DNA of 64,000 nucleotides from Deferrisoma camini S3R1 (GTDB lineage Bacteria; Desulfobacterota; Deferrisomatia; Deferrisomatales; Deferrisomataceae), in contig NZ_JAFN01000001.1 of assembly GCF_000526155.1 (NCBI RefSeq), positions 3,102,264-3,166,263 on the forward strand. The letters run 5' to 3'. Shown piece by piece: positions 43,794 through 60,025 of this stretch. Under the pieces are notes generated by a model. That model saw nothing but the letters and a program-made list of their open reading frames with translations. It did not search any database and had not been told where the DNA came from. The stretch's first letter is position 1, and each line of letters starts with the position of its first letter. The position numbers and the translations under genes were made by a program.

Positions 43794-45383
43794 ATGGCCA
43801 ACCGGAGGTTCGAGATGCACCAGTACCGACACGTCCTCGTTCGCATGCGGCTTGGAGACTCCAACCGCCAGATCGCCAAAGCCGGCCTCATGGGCCGCCG
43901 CAAGGCCTCTGCCTTCCGTGAGCTCGCCGCCCACAACGGCTGGCTCGACCCCGACTCCCCCGTGCCCGACGAGGCCGCCATCGCCCAGGCCCTCGGCTCC
44001 TCCCCTGCACGGGCCACCCCGCGGGCCGGTTCCTCCCTCGAGCGCTACCGCGACGAGATCACCCGCTGGGTCGAGCTCGGCATCCAGGGCACCACCATCC
44101 ACGAGGCCCTGTGCCGAAAGCACGGCTACACCGGCCACTACTCTTCGGTACGGCGATTCCTCCAAGGCATCCGGAAGGCCAACCCCCAGGCCACCGTCAT
44201 GCTGGAGTTCGCCCCCGGCGAGGCCGCCCAGGTCGACTTCGGCAAGGGCCCCACGATCCCCCATCCCCTCACCGGCGAGCCCCAACTCACCTGGGTCTTC
44301 GTGATGACGCTTGCCTGGAGCCGCCATCAGTACGCCGAGATCGTCCCCGACCAGAAGGTCTCCACATGGATCGCCTGCCACCGCCGGGCCTTCGAGTGGT
44401 TTGGCGGCGTTCCTGCCCGGATCATCATCGACAACGCCAAGTGCGCCATTGTCCGCGCCTGCTACCACGATCCCGAGGTCCAGCGCTCCTATGCCGAGCT
44501 GGCCGAGGGCTACGGGTTCCGCATCGCCCCTTGTCCCGTCCGGGACCCCAAGAAGAAGGGCCGGGTGGAGTCCGGGGTGAAGTACATCAAGCGCTCGTTT
44601 CTGCCCCTTCGCGAGTTCCGAGACCGGGTCGACGCCAACCGCCAGCTCCACGAGTGGATCCGCTCCACCGCCGGCAACCGCCTTCACGGCACCACCCACG
44701 AGCGACCCCTCACCCGGTTCGTCGAGGTGGAGCGCCACGTGCTCAGGCCCCTGCCCGACGTGCCCCCCATCCTCGGCGTGTGGACCCGCGTGAAGCTCCA
44801 CGGCAACTGCCACGTCACCTTCGAGAAGGCCTACTACTCCGCCCCCTTTCGCCTCGTGCGCCAGCATCTGTGGCTGCGCGCCACCCCCTCGACCGTGGAG
44901 CTCTACCTCGACCACGAGCTCGTCGCCTCCCACCCCCGCCTGGCTCGCCCCGGCGAGCGCTCCACCGTCCAAGACCACCTCCCCCCGGAGGCGGTGGCCT
45001 ACCAGATGCAAGACCCCCAGTGGTGCCTCAAGAAGGCCCGAGCCCTCGGGCCCTCCACCCATGAGCTCGTCGAGCGCCTCTTCGCCCACCGCGTCCTCGA
45101 CAACCTCCGTGCCGCCCAGGGGGTGATCCGCCTGGCCCAGCGCTTCGGGCACGAGCGCCTGGAGGCCGCGTGCCGCCGGGCCCTTCGCTTCGATGATCCC
45201 CGCTACCGCACCGTGAAGACCATCCTCCAAAAGGGCCTCGATCAGGAGCCCGAACCGGCCGAGCCCTCCGCCCTCGCCGAGGCCTACACCGGCAAGGGCC
45301 GCTTCTGCCGCGATGCCGCCCAACTGCTCCTGTGGGATCCGCCCCCGGCCCCCCAGCGGCGGGGCCCCGGCGAAACCCTCTGA
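43794..45383 (+). CDS. istA: IS21 transposase IstA
   Basis: 529 residues. N-terminal HTH (VRMRLGDSNRQIAKAGLMGRRKASAF), second HTH near 85-115 (GTTIHEALCRKHGYTGHYSSVRRF), and an rve-type DDE core: APGEAAQVDFGKGP, FGGVPARIIIDNAKCAI and KKKGRVESGVKYIKRSF with the catalytic D, D, E. C-terminal Mu-type beta domain. Intact, so the element may be active. Confidence 0.95.
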   Translation: MANRRFEMHQYRHVLVRMRLGDSNRQIAKAGLMGRRKASAFRELAAHNGWLDPDSPVPDEAAIAQALGSSPARATPRAGSSLERYRDEITRWVELGIQGTTIHEALCRKHGYTGHYSSVRRFLQGIRKANPQATVMLEFAPGEAAQVDFGKGPTIPHPLTGEPQLTWVFVMTLAWSRHQYAEIVPDQKVSTWIACHRRAFEWFGGVPARIIIDNAKCAIVRACYHDPEVQRSYAELAEGYGFRIAPCPVRDPKKKGRVESGVKYIKRSFLPLREFRDRVDANRQLHEWIRSTAGNRLHGTTHERPLTRFVEVERHVLRPLPDVPPILGVWTRVKLHGNCHVTFEKAYYSAPFRLVRQHLWLRATPSTVELYLDHELVASHPRLARPGERSTVQDHLPPEAVAYQMQDPQWCLKKARALGPSTHELVERLFAHRVLDNLRAAQGVIRLAQRFGHERLEAACRRALRFDDPRYRTVKTILQKGLDQEPEPAEPSALAEAYTGKGRFCRDAAQLLLWDPPPAPQRRGPGETL

Positions 45384-45442
45384 GTTCCCGCCGCGCTGCC
45401 GAGCCTGTGCCTTCCACCCCTTCACGCAACGGAGACCAGACC

Positions 45443-46225
45443 ATGAACCCCATGCCCCAGCTCGCCCCCTTGCTCAAGCAGCTTCGCCTCTCTGGTATCC
45501 TCGACTCCCTCGAGGCCCGAAACCGTCAGGCCGTGGAGCATCAGCTCTCCTACACCGAGTTCCTCTCCCTGCTCATCCAGGACGAGATCGCCCGCCGCGA
45601 GCACAAAAAGCTCGCCCTCAGGTTCCGGCGCGCCGGCTTCCGCGGCGAAAAAACCATCGAGAACTTCGACTTCGCCTTCAACCCCGGCGTCAACAAGGCC
45701 CTCATCCTCGATGTCGCCACCTGCCGCTTCCTCCACGAAAAGGTCTGTGTCCTCATCGTCGGCCCCACCGGCACCGGCAAAAGCCATCTCGCCCAGGCCA
45801 TCGGCCACTGCGCCATCCGCCAGGGCCACGATGTGCTGTTTACCTCCGCCTCCAAGCTCCTGGGCTCGCTCCATGCCGCCCGGGCCACCGATACCTACGA
45901 ACGCCGCTTCGCCGCCCTGGCACGGGTCGATCTGCTCATCATCGACGACTTCGGCCTCAAACCCCTGCGCCCTCCCCAGGACGAGGACTTCCACGACCTC
46001 ATGAACGAACGCTACGAGCGCGCCTCCACCATCCTCACCAGCAACCTCGATTTGGGCGAGTGGGGCCAGGCCTTCCCCAACCGCCTGCTGGGGGCCGCCA
46101 CCATCGACCGGATCCGCCACGGCGCCTACCGGATCGTCCTGGAGGGCCAGAGCTACCGATCACCCCGACCCCTGCCGGACGACGCCCCCCAGGAGGTCGT
46201 TGCCTCGACGCGTCGAAAGGGGTAG
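45443..46225 (+). CDS. istB: IS21 transposition helper ATPase IstB
   Basis: 260 residues. LAPLLKQLRLSGILDSLEARN at the N-terminus, Walker A GPTGTGKSHLAQAIGHCA, Walker B LLIIDDFGLKPL and sensor TSNLDLGEW. A DnaC-like AAA+ protein that stimulates IstA. It starts 59 bases after istA. Confidence 0.95.
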   Translation: MNPMPQLAPLLKQLRLSGILDSLEARNRQAVEHQLSYTEFLSLLIQDEIARREHKKLALRFRRAGFRGEKTIENFDFAFNPGVNKALILDVATCRFLHEKVCVLIVGPTGTGKSHLAQAIGHCAIRQGHDVLFTSASKLLGSLHAARATDTYERRFAALARVDLLIIDDFGLKPLRPPQDEDFHDLMNERYERASTILTSNLDLGEWGQAFPNRLLGAATIDRIRHGAYRIVLEGQSYRSPRPLPDDAPQEVVASTRRKG

Positions 46226-46371
46226 GGTCAACACCGCCGGGACCCTCTGAGGTAGGTCGGTCCGAGTGGCTCCATTACGGCGATCATGACCCGGCTCCAT
46301 TAGCCCGATCATGGCACCCCCAAACTGGCTCCATTAGGCCGATCATGGGTGGCTCCATTAGGGCGATCCGT

Positions 46372-46419
46372 GACACGGCCGACCTGATCGGCAAGATGCT
46401 CCACCTACGCCCCGCTTGA
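46372..46419 (+). pseudogene. 3' fragment of a second iclR gene
   Basis: In frame, these bases encode DTADLIGKMLHLRPA-stop, matching the intact iclR end DAADLIGKMLQPRPA. The rest of the gene is missing; the IS21 right end takes its place. Confidence 0.85.
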
Positions 46420-46665
46420 CACAAAAGAGACTGTGCTCGTATAGAGGAAAATCCGTTTAGGGAAATCGACCCGGGGGAGGCGATGGCCCGCGACCACCGA
46501 ACCGCGATCATCCCGTACGGCCGCAACGCCCAGCGAGGCGCTTGCGGCCGTTTTGCGTCAAGGGTACCACCCCGCGGCTTTCCCGCGTATCCCCTCGTTC
46601 CCGAGAACATCTCTCTGACCATCCACTCGCGCGAGTGCGCGGGTCGTCAGTCCACAGCGTATTAT
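46372..46665 (+). repeat. iclR 3' region, copy B of the diverged direct repeat
   Basis: Partner of 42678-42959. It keeps the terminator hairpin (46517-46555) and the palindrome CACTCGCGCGAGTG (46624-46637). Relative to copy A, C to A and G to T changes fall at paired positions, preserving the symmetry. Ends at GCGTATTAT (46657-46665), after which AT-rich cassette DNA begins. Confidence 0.8.
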
Positions 46666-46684
46666 ACCGACGCCAAAATAAATC

Positions 46685-46717
46685 CCTTATGCGGACGTCC
46701 GTATAAGGCCCTGTTAT
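46685..46717 (+). other. Palindromic site at the left edge of the cassette array (degenerate attC or attI?)
   Basis: CCTTATGCGGAC followed directly by GTCCGTATAAGG is a 24-base palindrome with one mismatch (46685-46708). Then comes CCCTGTTATG, whose G|TTATG (46713) resembles the crossover base of the later attC sites. The left core box expected of a full attC is missing or decayed. Confidence 0.45.
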
Positions 46718-46732
46718 GTGGACGGATAATGA

Positions 46733-47137
46733 ATGAATGAGCTTCTCAAAATTGTACCAACATCATGGCGGTGGTACCTTGGCTTTGCGCTTGTGATCCC
46801 TTTTGCCGTACGACTTTTTATCTGCTGGATCGAGTCAAAACGACTCAGTATCCCGTTCAAAAAAATCTTCAAGGGCTTTGGAGGCGAGGAAAACGATAAA
46901 GACGTCCCTGCGGACTATTGGCTGGCTTTCATCATCGGTATCTTGGAGATGCTGGCATATCCGCCCCTCATTGGTAGCAATACCCCAGAGATAATAGGTG
47001 GTTGGCTTGCTTTCAAGACCATTAACCGTTGGCAGTACGCGCCAAATTGGTCGCGTGGCCCGTTCAATAGGTATCTTGTCGCTAATGCTGTAGTACTTTT
47101 CGGCGCGTACCTCAGCGCAAGGTTTGCGTTCTCCTAA
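46733..47137 (+). CDS. Cassette 1: small membrane protein, unknown
   Basis: 134 residues with three hydrophobic segments (YLGFALVIPFAVRLFICWI, YWLAFIIGILEMLAYPPLIG, YLVANAVVLFGAYLSARFAF). Starts within 20 bases of the presumed cassette boundary and ends 11 bases before attC1. AT-rich. No family recognised. Two-component membrane-effector defence systems often include such small proteins, but nothing here proves it. Confidence 0.75.
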   Translation: MNELLKIVPTSWRWYLGFALVIPFAVRLFICWIESKRLSIPFKKIFKGFGGEENDKDVPADYWLAFIIGILEMLAYPPLIGSNTPEIIGGWLAFKTINRWQYAPNWSRGPFNRYLVANAVVLFGAYLSARFAFS

Positions 47138-47147
47138 TGATTCACAA

Positions 47148-47207
47148 CATAACAACGGCATCCAGTCGGACGGCGCTACGCGCCGCCGCTGATGCCGAGC
47201 GTTAGCG
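47148..47207 (+). repeat. attC site 1
   Basis: ATAACAACGGCATC ... GATGCCGAGCGTTAGC. Outer boxes ACAACG and GCGTTAGC, stem GGCATC/GATGCC, and a GC-rich inner hairpin. Right box with crossover G|TTAGC at 47201. Confidence 0.8.
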
Positions 47208-47223
47208 CGGAAACAGTTACATC

Positions 47224-48507
47224 ATGACTATTCAGCTCCCGAGAGACGCTCACGGTTACGATTATGAAAATCAAGTGTGTGCTCTGCTACTTGCGCGAGG
47301 CTATTACCTCGAAACACGTCTGATTCTCAAAAAAGGCACAGAGGAAGTATTAGAGTTTGACGCAATAGCCACACCAGTCACTGACTATGAAAATCGCTCA
47401 ATCGTCGAGGTTAAAAGCGGCAACTGGGGTATATCCGATATATTCAAGCTTTACGGACAGGTTATGTATATGGGTGAGCAAGACGCCAAGCTCATCCATA
47501 AGAAGCCCGTTAGTGATACAAAAAAACAGGCAATAGATGAAGTCATTAAAAACGTTCCTGTAACTCCACTGCATGTCAATCTTGACTCAGATGATCCTCT
47601 TGGCGCTATACCATCTGGATTAGAAATCACTAATGATATCACGAAAGCTATTTTTCTAGGTTCTTGGTGGGCACGATCAGCTGAACGTGTTGCTCAGAAG
47701 CGTTTTCGAGATTATTTCAAATCCTTCCAAGAAAAACCTGAAGTTGTCGAATGCGCAAAGACATATGTAGATGCAATAGCTGAATGCCTTTTTAGGAAAA
47801 CGCCGCTATCTCGAGTGGATGCGCTTTATGATGCGTACAAAGAAGCACCACAACTCACGTCAAGATTGATCGACTATATCGTCGAAAATTCTAATGAGAG
47901 CAAGCAAGCAGTTAGAGCATCCGTATTCAATAATCATGAGAGGCCTTATCTACAGCATGTAGCCGCCAAGGAGTTCAGTGCGCGGATATCTATAATAAAA
48001 AATGCGTATGACGCCGTACTGAAAGAACGAAATATACTGGAAAGTGGTGGAATTGGTTGGAGTTGGGATGGCCTAATAAAAAGCGTACTTCCAGTTGCCT
48101 TTCGCCGCGGAATGGAAGAATTGGCGGAATTTCCATTGCCCAACAATATTCCCTTCTTTTTCCAAGTGTTTATAGAAGTCTTTGGCGGTTTCTATTATCC
48201 AGAGAATGATAGAGAAAATAACGCTATTTCTGAAGCAACCGGTATTCCGGTTGATGTTATACCTAACGCCTTAGATCTTCTTGATATTTTCTTTCCTATT
48301 CCGAACGGCTGGCTTTTTAAGGGAGACGAAATTCATATGCTAAAAGGCGTACCCGCTTATCTTCGAGGTGCTGGCTGTTTTACAAGAGATAGTTTATATG
48401 GAGAAGATTGGAAATCAAATGTTTCCTCAAGGCAGAGGCAGTTTTTGGGGGAGTGGCACAATGCCCTGTACCACATACTTGAACCGTCGCTCAAAGTGGA
48501 GGAATGA
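47224..48507 (+). CDS. Cassette 2: protein with PD-(D/E)XK nuclease-like N-terminus
   Basis: 427 residues. Residues 11-85 have the layout of a PD-(D/E)XK nuclease: Glu15 in GYDYENQVCALLLARGYY, Asp46 in VLEFDAIATP, and Glu62-x-Lys64 in SIVEVKSGNWG, followed by an amphipathic helix (DIFKLYGQVMYM). This is the order of Mrr/YraN-like and restriction endonucleases. Residues 150-427 are mostly helical with no recognised domain. Nuclease activity and defence role are inferred. Single gene in its cassette, ends directly at attC2; AT-rich. Confidence 0.75.
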   Translation: MTIQLPRDAHGYDYENQVCALLLARGYYLETRLILKKGTEEVLEFDAIATPVTDYENRSIVEVKSGNWGISDIFKLYGQVMYMGEQDAKLIHKKPVSDTKKQAIDEVIKNVPVTPLHVNLDSDDPLGAIPSGLEITNDITKAIFLGSWWARSAERVAQKRFRDYFKSFQEKPEVVECAKTYVDAIAECLFRKTPLSRVDALYDAYKEAPQLTSRLIDYIVENSNESKQAVRASVFNNHERPYLQHVAAKEFSARISIIKNAYDAVLKERNILESGGIGWSWDGLIKSVLPVAFRRGMEELAEFPLPNNIPFFFQVFIEVFGGFYYPENDRENNAISEATGIPVDVIPNALDLLDIFFPIPNGWLFKGDEIHMLKGVPAYLRGAGCFTRDSLYGEDWKSNVSSRQRQFLGEWHNALYHILEPSLKVEE

Positions 48508-48594
48508 GCGCTAACAAGCGCATACAGTCGACCGTAAAAAGCGCCGCTTGTTCCTCGCTCCGCTTTTTCCGTCGGCTGATGCTAGTCGTTAAGC
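48508..48594 (+). repeat. attC site 2
   Basis: GCGCTAACAAGCGCATACAG at the left, GCTGATGCTAGTCGTTAAGC at the right. Core boxes GCTAAC/GTTAAGC; inner stem AAAAAGCG/CGCTTTTT. Crossover G|TTAAGC at 48588. Confidence 0.9.
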
Positions 48595-48601
48595 CTAAAA
48601 C

Positions 48602-49657
48602 ATGGACTATAAGTACATCGTCATATACAGATTTGAAGGAATATCGCCTAGCAACTTAGACGAAGATAAGCCTGTTTATCAAGATGATGAGCGTGGGATT
48701 AATGTCATTTTAACAGCGGACATTAATCGGCACTGTCTGCTCATTGATACGGGTTTAGCTTGCGCAAGTCTCCTGTTACGCGGGATGTTTGGTGGAGAAA
48801 AAATCCAAGATTTGCCAATAGCGATTGATGCTGAAGTAACAAAAATCCAGGAAAAAAGAGTATCCACGAGTAAAACCGGCGCATATGTAGTAATAATTAT
48901 TGATGGGCGGGCGGAACTAGATATAAAAGAGAATCTACATAGGGAAACGGAACATTTTCGCATTTGCTTTGCTGCCATTGATAAAGAATTAATACGCAAA
49001 CAGCATAGAGAAACAATTAATGCAATAGTGGCTTCGTTGGCGATAGCGACAGGCCCTGAATACCATGCAGAAAAGGTTGCTAGTGGAATTCACTTTATAG
49101 ATGAAAATGGTAAGCCATTATTTAGCTACACATTTCAAGGTGGGCGAGTTCGCGAAATTCTGTCAAAGCCAGTTAGTTCCGATAAGGAATGTGAAATTAA
49201 TAAGGTAATCAGTCTATTCATTTCTAATCCAACACTTAAGACGCCTGTTCGGTTGGTGACGCAATCACTCGAAACCACGCAAGATAATTTAAGAGCCTTC
49301 ATGTCCGCGTGGTCAGCACTAGAAATATTGGTCAATAAAATATTTCCTATTTACGAAGAAAAATTCATATCTGCAATATCAGATGACCACAACTCTCATG
49401 GAGTGGGCAATTTCCTAGAGCGCATCAAAGTTGTAATGAAAGACAAATATAGACTTACAGATAAGTTCTCGTTGATTGCGTCTTTCTTGAGTAGTGAGAT
49501 AGCAGATGATATTGAATTGTTTAAGCGCATGAAGCAGTTACGAGACGACATTTATCATGGTAAGGAGTTTGATGAAGAGGATCTTCCTGTAGAAGATGTA
49601 CGTAAAATGGCAGCGAAATATCTAAAGGATCATATGCTAACAAATAAAAATGGTTAA
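48602..49657 (+). CDS. Cassette 3: protein with C-terminal HEPN-like domain
   Basis: 351 residues. The last 120 residues resemble an ApeA-type HEPN domain: FMSAWSALEILVNKIFP, then FLERIKVVMKDKYRL, and RMKQLRDDIYHGKEF, where Arg314-x4-His319 is the canonical R-x4-6-H ribonuclease motif. The N-terminal two thirds is beta-rich and unrecognised. HEPN proteins commonly act as RNases in defence or toxin systems. Single-gene cassette, stop codon overlaps attC3; AT-rich. Confidence 0.72.
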   Translation: MDYKYIVIYRFEGISPSNLDEDKPVYQDDERGINVILTADINRHCLLIDTGLACASLLLRGMFGGEKIQDLPIAIDAEVTKIQEKRVSTSKTGAYVVIIIDGRAELDIKENLHRETEHFRICFAAIDKELIRKQHRETINAIVASLAIATGPEYHAEKVASGIHFIDENGKPLFSYTFQGGRVREILSKPVSSDKECEINKVISLFISNPTLKTPVRLVTQSLETTQDNLRAFMSAWSALEILVNKIFPIYEEKFISAISDDHNSHGVGNFLERIKVVMKDKYRLTDKFSLIASFLSSEIADDIELFKRMKQLRDDIYHGKEFDEEDLPVEDVRKMAAKYLKDHMLTNKNG

Positions 49658-49726
49658 CAAACGCATTAACTCGGACAATTTGCTACGCTGCGCTTCGCAA
49701 ATTACCGGTTATGCGAGGCGTTAGCT
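49652..49726 (+). repeat. attC site 3
   Basis: GTTAACAAACGCATTAACTC ... CCGGTTATGCGAGGCGTTAG. Inner stem AATTTGC/GCAAATT around TACGCTGCGCTTC. Crossover G|TTAGC at 49720. The inner loop sequence is shared with attC4. Confidence 0.92.
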
Positions 49727-49740
49727 GCTGAAGGAAGCTC

Positions 49741-50340
49741 ATGGGTATAGAACATGCAAAGTCTGAATCCCCCATACACTGGCGCTATTTTTTGGCGCTG
49801 GAAGAGGATTTACGTCAGCTAGCTAGGTATATCGAATTTGCGGAAGATAATTTTTCAACATATTCTGTAGAGCTTGCCTCCTTGTTACTTAGCGCAGGTT
49901 CTGAAATAGATGTTGTTGCGAAACAAATATGTAAAAGGATAAAAAGGGATTCTAAAGCAAATAACATTGGGCATTACGCTAATCAAATAGGGGCGGCATT
50001 GCCAAGCGTGGGCAAATTCAAATTGTCTCTTCCAAAATACGGTTTGTGTTTGCACCCTTGGAAAAACTGGTCTTCTAATCCAAGAAAAAGTCCATATTGG
50101 TGGAAATCATATAACAACGTAAAACACCAAAGGCACACTCACTATAAGGAGGCCAATCTAAAGAATGTGTTGAATGCACTTGGGGGGCTGTATGTGTTGG
50201 TTCTGTACCTTTATCCCGAACTTGCTGAGCAGGGTAGGCTGTCCCCAAATCCGTCATTATTCCGGCCTGAAGCATCATTTTTTAATGGTATATCATGCTT
50301 GGATACAGAGCTTCTAATAAAGTATGAGTTACGCAGCTAA
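49741..50340 (+). CDS. Cassette 4: helical protein, possibly HEPN-like
   Basis: 199 residues, mainly helical. LALEEDLRQLARYIEFAEDN and VELASLLLSAGSEIDVVAKQIC suggest a helical bundle, and YWWKSYNNVKHQRHTHY (119-135) has an N-x-x-K-H motif seen in HEPN-like proteins. No R-x4-6-H in the usual place, so the assignment is weak. The stop codon overlaps attC4; AT-rich. Confidence 0.7.
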   Translation: MGIEHAKSESPIHWRYFLALEEDLRQLARYIEFAEDNFSTYSVELASLLLSAGSEIDVVAKQICKRIKRDSKANNIGHYANQIGAALPSVGKFKLSLPKYGLCLHPWKNWSSNPRKSPYWWKSYNNVKHQRHTHYKEANLKNVLNALGGLYVLVLYLYPELAEQGRLSPNPSLFRPEASFFNGISCLDTELLIKYELRS

Positions 50341-50406
50341 CAAGGCGCTCGTTCGGACGCAAACTACGCTGCGCTTCGTTTGCGCCGCACAGCTTGGTCG
50401 TTATAC
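50335..50406 (+). repeat. attC site 4
   Basis: GCTAACAAGGCGCTCGTTCG ... CACAGCTTGGTCGTTATACC. Inner stem GCAAAC/GTTTGC around TACGCTGCGCTTC, as in attC3. Crossover G|TTATA at 50400. Confidence 0.92.
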
Positions 50407-50710
50407 CGATTGAAAATTTGGTAGTAGTGAAAGAGCATAAAGCATGAAATTCTGTAGATGACATTGAGGGTATGTATAGTCGCTATCATAAGAAAAGTGG
50501 CTTTGTTGGTGGTCTTGTTTTATATATGTACCAGAAAAAACTGCAAAATGGGTTCTTCCGGGTTTCTGGTGGGTAGAGATCGCGGTAGTTTGGTTCGCCG
50601 AAGGGAAAGTTGGCATCGGAGTGGATGGGAGAAGTTGGGAAGGCATATAATCACAACCGACAGGGTGATCCTGGTCCTTTTAGGCCAGACATGTAATAGT
50701 GAGGTGCCAA
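50407..50710 (+). other. Gene-free start of the fifth cassette
   Basis: About 300 AT-rich bases before hicB. Short reading frames on both strands (60-87 codons) have no ribosome site or recognisable motif and I do not support any of them. It could hold the hicBA promoter and operator. Confidence 0.4.
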
Positions 50711-50929
50711 ATGAAAGCTGAGTTTACAGCTATCATAGAAAAGGCCCCTGAAGGCGGGTATTGGGCAATATGTCCAGAAATACCGGGAGCCAACGGTCAA
50801 GGTGAAACAATTGAAGAGGCAAAAAATAGCTTAAGAGAGGCTATTGAGTTGATCTTGAAAGACAGAAGGGAAGACGTCCTGCGTGGTTTGCCGGAAGATG
50901 TGATACGTGACAAGGTGCAGGTAGCATGA
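50711..50929 (+). CDS. hicB: HicB-family antitoxin
   Basis: 72 residues: KAEFTAIIEKAPEGGYWAICPEIPGANGQGETIEEAKNSLREAIEL is the HicB partial RNase-H fold. The C-terminus (LKDRREDVLRGLPEDVIRDKV) lacks an added HTH. It normally neutralises HicA RNase. ATG at 50711 has GAGGTG upstream. The stop overlaps the ATG of hicA, whose product is broken. Confidence 0.88.
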   Translation: MKAEFTAIIEKAPEGGYWAICPEIPGANGQGETIEEAKNSLREAIELILKDRREDVLRGLPEDVIRDKVQVA

Positions 50930-50975
50930 AGCGTCGTGATCTAGAGCGAAAGCTCAGGATCGCGGGCTGCTATCC
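50926..50975 (+). pseudogene. hicA: Truncated hicA toxin gene
   Basis: The frame starts MKRRDLERKLRIAGCY, the normal HicA N-terminus (first helix and the GCY before the RNA-binding loop). It then changes to GC-rich, proline/arginine-coding sequence (PPAGGEARCRPAAP) with no HicA features; the catalytic histidine region is absent. The switch near 50973 is also the right edge of the AT-rich island. Confidence 0.8.
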
Positions 50976-51029
50976 TCCGGCCGGGGGCGAAGCCAGGTGC
51001 CGCCCGGCCGCCCCGGCGGGCCGTGGCTG

Positions 51030-59824: not shown

Positions 59825-59914
59825 TTCTCATCTGTCCAGGATGGAGCACCGGACCCCGAGGGGTTGGTTGCTGTGGCTTCGCAGGGCCTGGTCCCTCCGC
59901 CACTCTCGATAAGA
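59825..59914 (-). ncRNA. SAM-I riboswitch (S box) of metX
   Basis: Minus strand, in order: CTTATCGAGAG, GGCGGAGGGACCAGGCCCTG, GAAGCCACAGCAACC, a P3 hairpin, GGTGCTCCATCC, and CAGATGAGAAG. All conserved S-box elements are present. The downstream leader has a GC stem (CGCGGCC/GGCCGCG) but no T run, so control may be at translation. Confidence 0.93.
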
Positions 59915-60025
59915 AGTCGCCGGCCTCGCGGCGGGGGGTCCGGGACGCCGGACCCCAAAAATAGAAGAACAGGGGTAGAGCGATTGCTCGCTGCTAACTC
60001 CCTGCTCTTCCGGGGGGGCTCTATG
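59915..60025 (-). other. Interval between fur and the riboswitch
   Basis: Contains a 9-bp stem with GACG loop (GGGGTCCGG/CCGGACCCC, 59935-59956) with a T-rich run on its 5' side on the minus strand, so not a normal terminator for fur. No gene seen. Confidence 0.45.

Follow-up and report, generated by a model that had tools for sequence, protein, structure and literature searches.

A candidate defence nuclease with an N-terminal PD-(D/E)XK domain carried as an integron cassette in Deferrisoma camini

Deferrisoma camini S3R1 carries a gene (47224–48507, plus strand) encoding a 427-residue protein, in which a predicted PD-(D/E)XK nuclease domain (residues about 2–137) is followed by a helical domain at the C-terminus (about 138–427). 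Coordinates refer to the window, which is the whole 64,000-nucleotide stretch of contig NZ_JAFN01000001.1 that was analysed. We lean towards the view that the product is an active, single-protein, metal-dependent DNA endonuclease directed against DNA that enters the cell, the helical domain serving as its sensor or specificity part; that it cleaves, that DNA is its substrate and that immunity is its purpose are what we infer from the fold, the residues and the genomic setting described below.

Nuclease domain

The start codon of the candidate is supported by a Thiobacillus relative, since the two proteins begin collinearly in the alignment (MPIRLPKDAKEYDYEDQ in the candidate and MTIQLPRDAHGYDYENQ in Thiobacillus). 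The preliminary description had pointed to E, D and E-x-K at residues 15, 46, 62 and 64, spaced as in nucleases, and these positions proved exact: E15 (codon 47266–47268), D46 (47359–47361) and the E62-V63-K64 motif (47407–47415), all on the plus strand. E15, D46, E62 and K64 are kept in 13 of 13 aligned members, namely the candidate and 12 full-length relatives of 26–58% identity. As 50 of the 427 residues are invariant in this alignment, the chance of all four named residues falling there is about 1.7e-4. G66, W68, G69, D72, F74 and K75, which lie just past the E-x-K motif, are likewise invariant among the 13 members.

Structure prediction had been proposed as the check on this domain, with the lack of a nuclease fold as the outcome that would speak against it, and AlphaFold2 did predict such a fold. 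The model of the candidate, with the family alignment as input (pLDDT 85.6, pTM 0.89), contains an αβββαβ PD-(D/E)XK core consisting of a helix at residues 12–24, strands at 27–37, 40–51 and 59–64, a helix at 70–83 and a strand at 87–92. The four residues occupy canonical positions in this core, with E15 on the first helix (helix A), D46 on strand 2, and E62 and K64 on strand 3, so that their expected clustering is borne out as far as it can be read from the strand topology of the model. According to the hairpin register, D46 should face K64 and E62 on the adjacent strand.

In the structural comparison of residues 2–151, the top match was AF1548 (Z 10.5 over 111 residues, 3.3 Å), followed by Can2 (8bao; Z 10.3), EndoMS/NucS (9.8), VC1899 (9.2), Cdn1 (8.7), FokI (8.5), EcoT38I (8.5) and Card1 (8.3), with Bax1 and Hjc also present. 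The leading matches are mostly PD-(D/E)XK proteins, and none of the nucleases matched extends past the N-terminal domain. The modelled fold appears closest to the Mrr/AF1548/Can2-Card1/NucS group. Because Foldseek gave no E-value under 0.07 for the model, the assignment is based on how consistent the matches are and on the invariant motif. A viral structure library yielded weak matches, the better of which were of nuclease-domain length. As well, Pfam Mrr_cat (PF04471) has no match in the candidate itself and reaches its gathering score in no member, but it is found below threshold in two relatives (E 0.002–0.003; 18.6 and 18.1 bits, cut-off 21), and NA-iREase1 occurs below threshold in several members (best E 0.0014). 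These sub-threshold matches in the relatives agree with a nuclease fold.

Integron platform and cassettes

The candidate was described beforehand as a single-gene mobile cassette, and the flanking sequence confirms this, with attC sites on both sides in direct orientation and an attI-like leader upstream. It is the second cassette of the window integron. Four attC sites, all on the plus strand, were found by eye, by folding and by alignment to the host's other integrons, after having been missed by a strict attC regular expression. Site 1 (47146–47207) forms the 5' boundary of the cassette, with a folding z of -3.9 for the bottom strand of 47138–47222; site 2 (48507–48594) is the candidate's own attC and, like site 3 (49651–49728), is supported by folding and alignment. 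Site 4 (50334–50410) was recognised by alignment to the attC sites of the host's other two integrons, where two attC sites next to the intact integrase are 97% identical to it over 67 nt and one attC in the second integron is 100% identical over 50 nt. Common to the four sites are a central palindrome and the R''/R' boxes (TAAC...CGTTA). For sites 1–3 the bottom strand folds better than nearly all shuffles, and for site 4 it folds no better than chance against its shuffles.

The attI-like leader (46624–46716, plus strand) has 84% identity to the stretch that separates intI from the first attC in the host's intact integron, and it also resembles the leader of the host's second integron. Upstream of it, 46411–46564 (plus strand) is 77% identical to the 3' flank of the intact integrase gene, and 46555–46610 matches the region around the 5' end of that gene (82%). 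The integrase gene itself is absent between these two segments, about 1.3 kb having been deleted. The intact IntI (TIGR02249, 424.6 bits against a cut-off of 265) is encoded at G000:C1:2111851-2112783, about 1 Mb from the window, and a partial integron integrase lies at about 1.51 Mb. Because the leader and the intI-flank homology are present and the integrase gene is missing between them, the window holds, on sequence homology, the third integron platform of the host genome, with its attI-like leader kept, its integrase lost and an IS21 element adjoining. The deletion of the integrase is almost clean, and the leader and cassettes are retained (46411–46716). A tyrosine recombinase about 36 kb upstream was ruled out as the integron integrase; it is XerC-like and adjoins hslV/hslU.

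The first cassette (46733–47137) encodes a hydrophobic 134-residue protein of no family. The third (48602–49657) encodes 351 residues with a C-terminal RDDIYH, an RX4H motif of HEPN type, and a weak Csx1-like PADLOC match (E 0.0043, residues 261–341), and the fourth (49741–50340) encodes 199 residues of no family; all three reading frames lie on the plus strand. The IS21-type istA/istB genes (43794–46225, plus strand) adjoin the truncated platform, and four copies of a 22-bp repeat (TGGCTCCATTA..GCGATCATG), probably IS21 end repeats, follow istB at 46267–46371. Past the cassettes, at 50699–51000 (plus strand), a HicB-like antitoxin gene precedes a HicA-like frame, of which the start is present before high-G+C sequence interrupts it, and a SAM riboswitch (70.2 bits) occurs at 59825–59915 on the minus strand. 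The G+C content of the candidate gene (0.43, compared with 0.69 in the window) marks it as acquired DNA.

The host's second integron, at about 1.51 Mb, was also inspected. A ThsB-TIR (Thoeris) gene lies right behind its attI-like leader (L026:10287-11233; Pfam E 4.9e-16, PADLOC 2.5e-12) and is followed by a gene for an 8xMP octameric membrane protein (E 7.5e-43); together they are likely to form a two-gene defence cassette in first position. A further cassette there (L026:13741-14217, plus strand) encodes a HEPN-like protein of 158 residues, with an RNNVIH motif and weak HEPN, Csx1 and DUF3644 PADLOC matches.

Family members and their neighbourhoods

Searched by itself, the candidate had no match beyond chance in Pfam, in PADLOC or among PDB chains (phmmer), and single-sequence scans of genomes and viruses returned no close relative. 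A tblastn search of plasmids yielded four relatives, all full-length and all from linear plasmids of Streptomyces; a search alignment was then built from these copies and one deltaproteobacterial relative. With this alignment, a scan of 84,980 species genomes found 11 loci and a viral scan found one more. The family is rare, being present in 2 of 395 genomes of the host's phylum and absent from the two other genomes of the host's genus that were searched. The nearest relative of the candidate is the Thiobacillus protein (58% identity); the two pair in a maximum-likelihood tree (support 100/100) and are separate there from the members in Myxococcota, actinobacteria and phages. Among the Streptomyces copies, dN/dS ranges from 0.16 to 0.28, and these copies are therefore under purifying selection. 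The family is unnamed in Pfam, NCBIfam, PADLOC-DB (2023) and PHROGs, and may have been named since. One copy lies on a contig filed as Vibrio cholerae strain 35D (L018), which has 61% G+C with flanks of about 68% and whose copy is about 57% identical to those of the Streptomyces plasmids; the contig is probably an actinobacterial contaminant.

The Thiobacillus relative is also a cassette, behind which an attC folds at z -10.5; the next cassette is a DpnI-family nuclease reading frame, and a NERD-domain gene comes after it. Another copy is part of a prophage (L013), where it sits between the terminase and portal genes and has a fusion of HsdR_N and N6_Mtase and a Methylase_S protein as neighbours, and that on contig L018 adjoins Dcm (split over two reading frames), FRG and GmrSD_N. 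ABC-three-component (ABC-3C) systems stand next to the copies on two Streptomyces plasmids (L003 and L005) and on contig L010. Moreover, a Schlafen/AlbA_2 protein occurs near one copy (L011), an integrase near another with a caspase-like protein a few kb off (L016), and a Ku gene near a third (L004), and one copy lies on a phage contig with TerL and DnaB (L027). A partner gene conserved beside family members was looked for and none was found, so the candidate appears to act alone.

In a plain tally of neighbours, the family recurs beside anti-phage genes, which makes it a good candidate for a one-gene defence against viruses or plasmids. This candidate role is drawn from context, that is, from the restriction, ABC-3C, caspase-like and Schlafen-like neighbours and from carriage by integrons, a prophage, a phage contig and plasmids. 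Against it, no defence-library model fits the family, and four Streptomyces loci (L009, L012, L014 and L015) have no recognised defence gene around the copy.

The same carriage bears on another explanation, unlikely but deserving of weight, that the protein is a weapon between mobile elements (phage–phage, plasmid–phage or plasmid–plasmid exclusion) and that the integron copies are captured versions of it. The relatives in the prophage (L013), on the phage contig (L027) and on the Streptomyces linear plasmids are what it would predict, and for copies on phage or plasmid DNA the role may indeed be competition between mobile elements. However, two members are chromosomal integron cassettes, where the host benefits, and several copies adjoin classical host defence systems. 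The action of the enzyme would moreover be identical, which leaves the distinction mainly an ecological one.

C-terminal domain and proposed action

The C-terminal part had been characterised as a helical stretch of about 280 residues with no recognised domain, and it still fits that account: residues 138–427 are helical save for a short beta-hairpin and have no Pfam match. Folded alone, residues 135–427 gave a confident model (pLDDT 89.4, pTM 0.88) of about 14 helices and one beta-hairpin, for which the PDB gave no match with Z at or above 5. At residues about 329–373 (48208–48342, plus strand), two helices and the short hairpin behind them form a possible, weak winged-helix-like element; a winged helix is not claimed there, as Foldseek returned only weak matches (3lmm and 7pza) and Pfam none. 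Judging from the model, the C-terminal domain most probably supplies target recognition or control of the nuclease.

On the favoured reading, a catalytically competent PD-(D/E)XK endonuclease, its N-terminal nuclease domain joined to the helical domain, would cut invading phage or plasmid DNA in a lone restriction-type action without a partner methyltransferase. The C-terminal domain would either recognise the target or keep the enzyme inactive until an invader arrives. Because the cassette has no methyltransferase, host DNA must be spared by other means, and self might be told from non-self by DNA modification, by DNA ends or structure, or by a phage component. There are known DNA-targeting defence nucleases that respond to base modification, to the ends or structure of DNA, or to a phage protein (PMC12904381). 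In two bacteria the vehicle of the gene would be an integron cassette, and elsewhere phages, plasmids and islands would carry it.

The lack of a methyltransferase to shield self DNA could also suit an abortive-infection effector, whose C-terminal domain restrains the nuclease and, on sensing a phage component, releases it onto host DNA. A large, conserved and confidently predicted C-terminal domain without DNA-binding homology is in keeping with such an effector, but no toxin, antitoxin or second-messenger synthase is conserved as a neighbour, and we hold this possibility to be improbable.

Comparison with known nucleases and defence systems

Structural matches to NucS/EndoMS (Z 9.8), Bax1 and Hjc, together with the Ku gene near the copy at L004, raise the question of a nuclease for DNA repair or recombination, akin to NucS, Bax1 or Hjc, that has no part in immunity. 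Such a function is decidedly improbable for a gene so patchily distributed (found in 2 of the 395 phylum genomes and missing from the two further genomes of the genus that were searched), which lies in accessory DNA wherever its context is readable and has an anomalous G+C content for its window. Still less can be said for a degenerate, catalytically dead nuclease-like protein with a DNA-binding or structural role, which the weak match to NA-iREase1 (inactive REase) would suit but which is hardly credible given four catalytic residues invariant in 13 divergent members and a Streptomyces dN/dS well below 1.

As a putative active nuclease, the candidate resembles the Mrr (type IV) restriction endonucleases in its PD-(D/E)XK core, in its D and E-x-K residues and in standing as one protein, with no methyltransferase. 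An N-terminal winged-helix domain precedes the catalytic domain in E. coli Mrr. In the candidate, by contrast, the catalytic domain comes first, followed by a helical domain of 290 residues, and Mrr_cat stays below its gathering score. Can2 and Card1, which with Cdn1 rank high among the structural matches of the nuclease domain, have a cyclic-oligoadenylate-sensing CARF domain preceding the nuclease. The nuclease of the candidate starts at the N-terminus, so that no CARF domain stands before it, and no CRISPR genes were recognised nearby. The DpnI/Dam-replacing family (PF06044) is a neighbour in Thiobacillus only, and the candidate has no match to it.

Shedu (SduA, DUF4263) is a PD-(D/E)XK nuclease that defends as a single protein and whose regulatory domain is distinct from the catalytic one (PMC12137116, PMC12904381), and the candidate shares with it the plan of a lone nuclease with a second domain. 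The order is reversed, however, as the nuclease of Shedu is C-terminal, after variable N-terminal sensors (PMC12137116), and that of the candidate is N-terminal; DUF4263, in Pfam or PADLOC, matched none of the 13 members.

Integrons have been shown experimentally to store anti-phage cassettes (PMC12409362), among them those of Darracq et al. 2025, Kieffer et al. 2025 and Getz et al., as that review presents them. The candidate is like these in being a single gene flanked by attC sites, and PADLOC-DB 2023 predates their named systems. Since integrons are established stores of such cassettes, the setting is not new. The earlier suggestion of an anti-phage gene of a new type holds for the nuclease fold and the cassette and falls short on novelty of type, anti-phage integron cassettes of one gene and single-protein PD-(D/E)XK defence nucleases such as Shedu being already known; what is new here is the family and its C-terminal domain.

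A further-reaching proposal, which we offer tentatively and consider rather doubtful as a whole, is that the members form a separate, unnamed family of lone defence nucleases, with a helical sensor of a fold not seen before at the C-terminus governing the PD-(D/E)XK domain at the N-terminus, and that this family has spread via integrons, phages, prophages and Streptomyces linear plasmids. If the candidate is active, it would represent a compact one-gene restriction system working from an integron cassette and crossing distant groups (a Thiobacillus, Myxococcota, Actinomycetota and phages), and the catalogue of defence systems would gain an unnamed family. Its C-terminal domain would then give a lone nuclease a new means of distinguishing invader from host DNA, and the integrons of this little-studied bacterium hold several likely defence genes.
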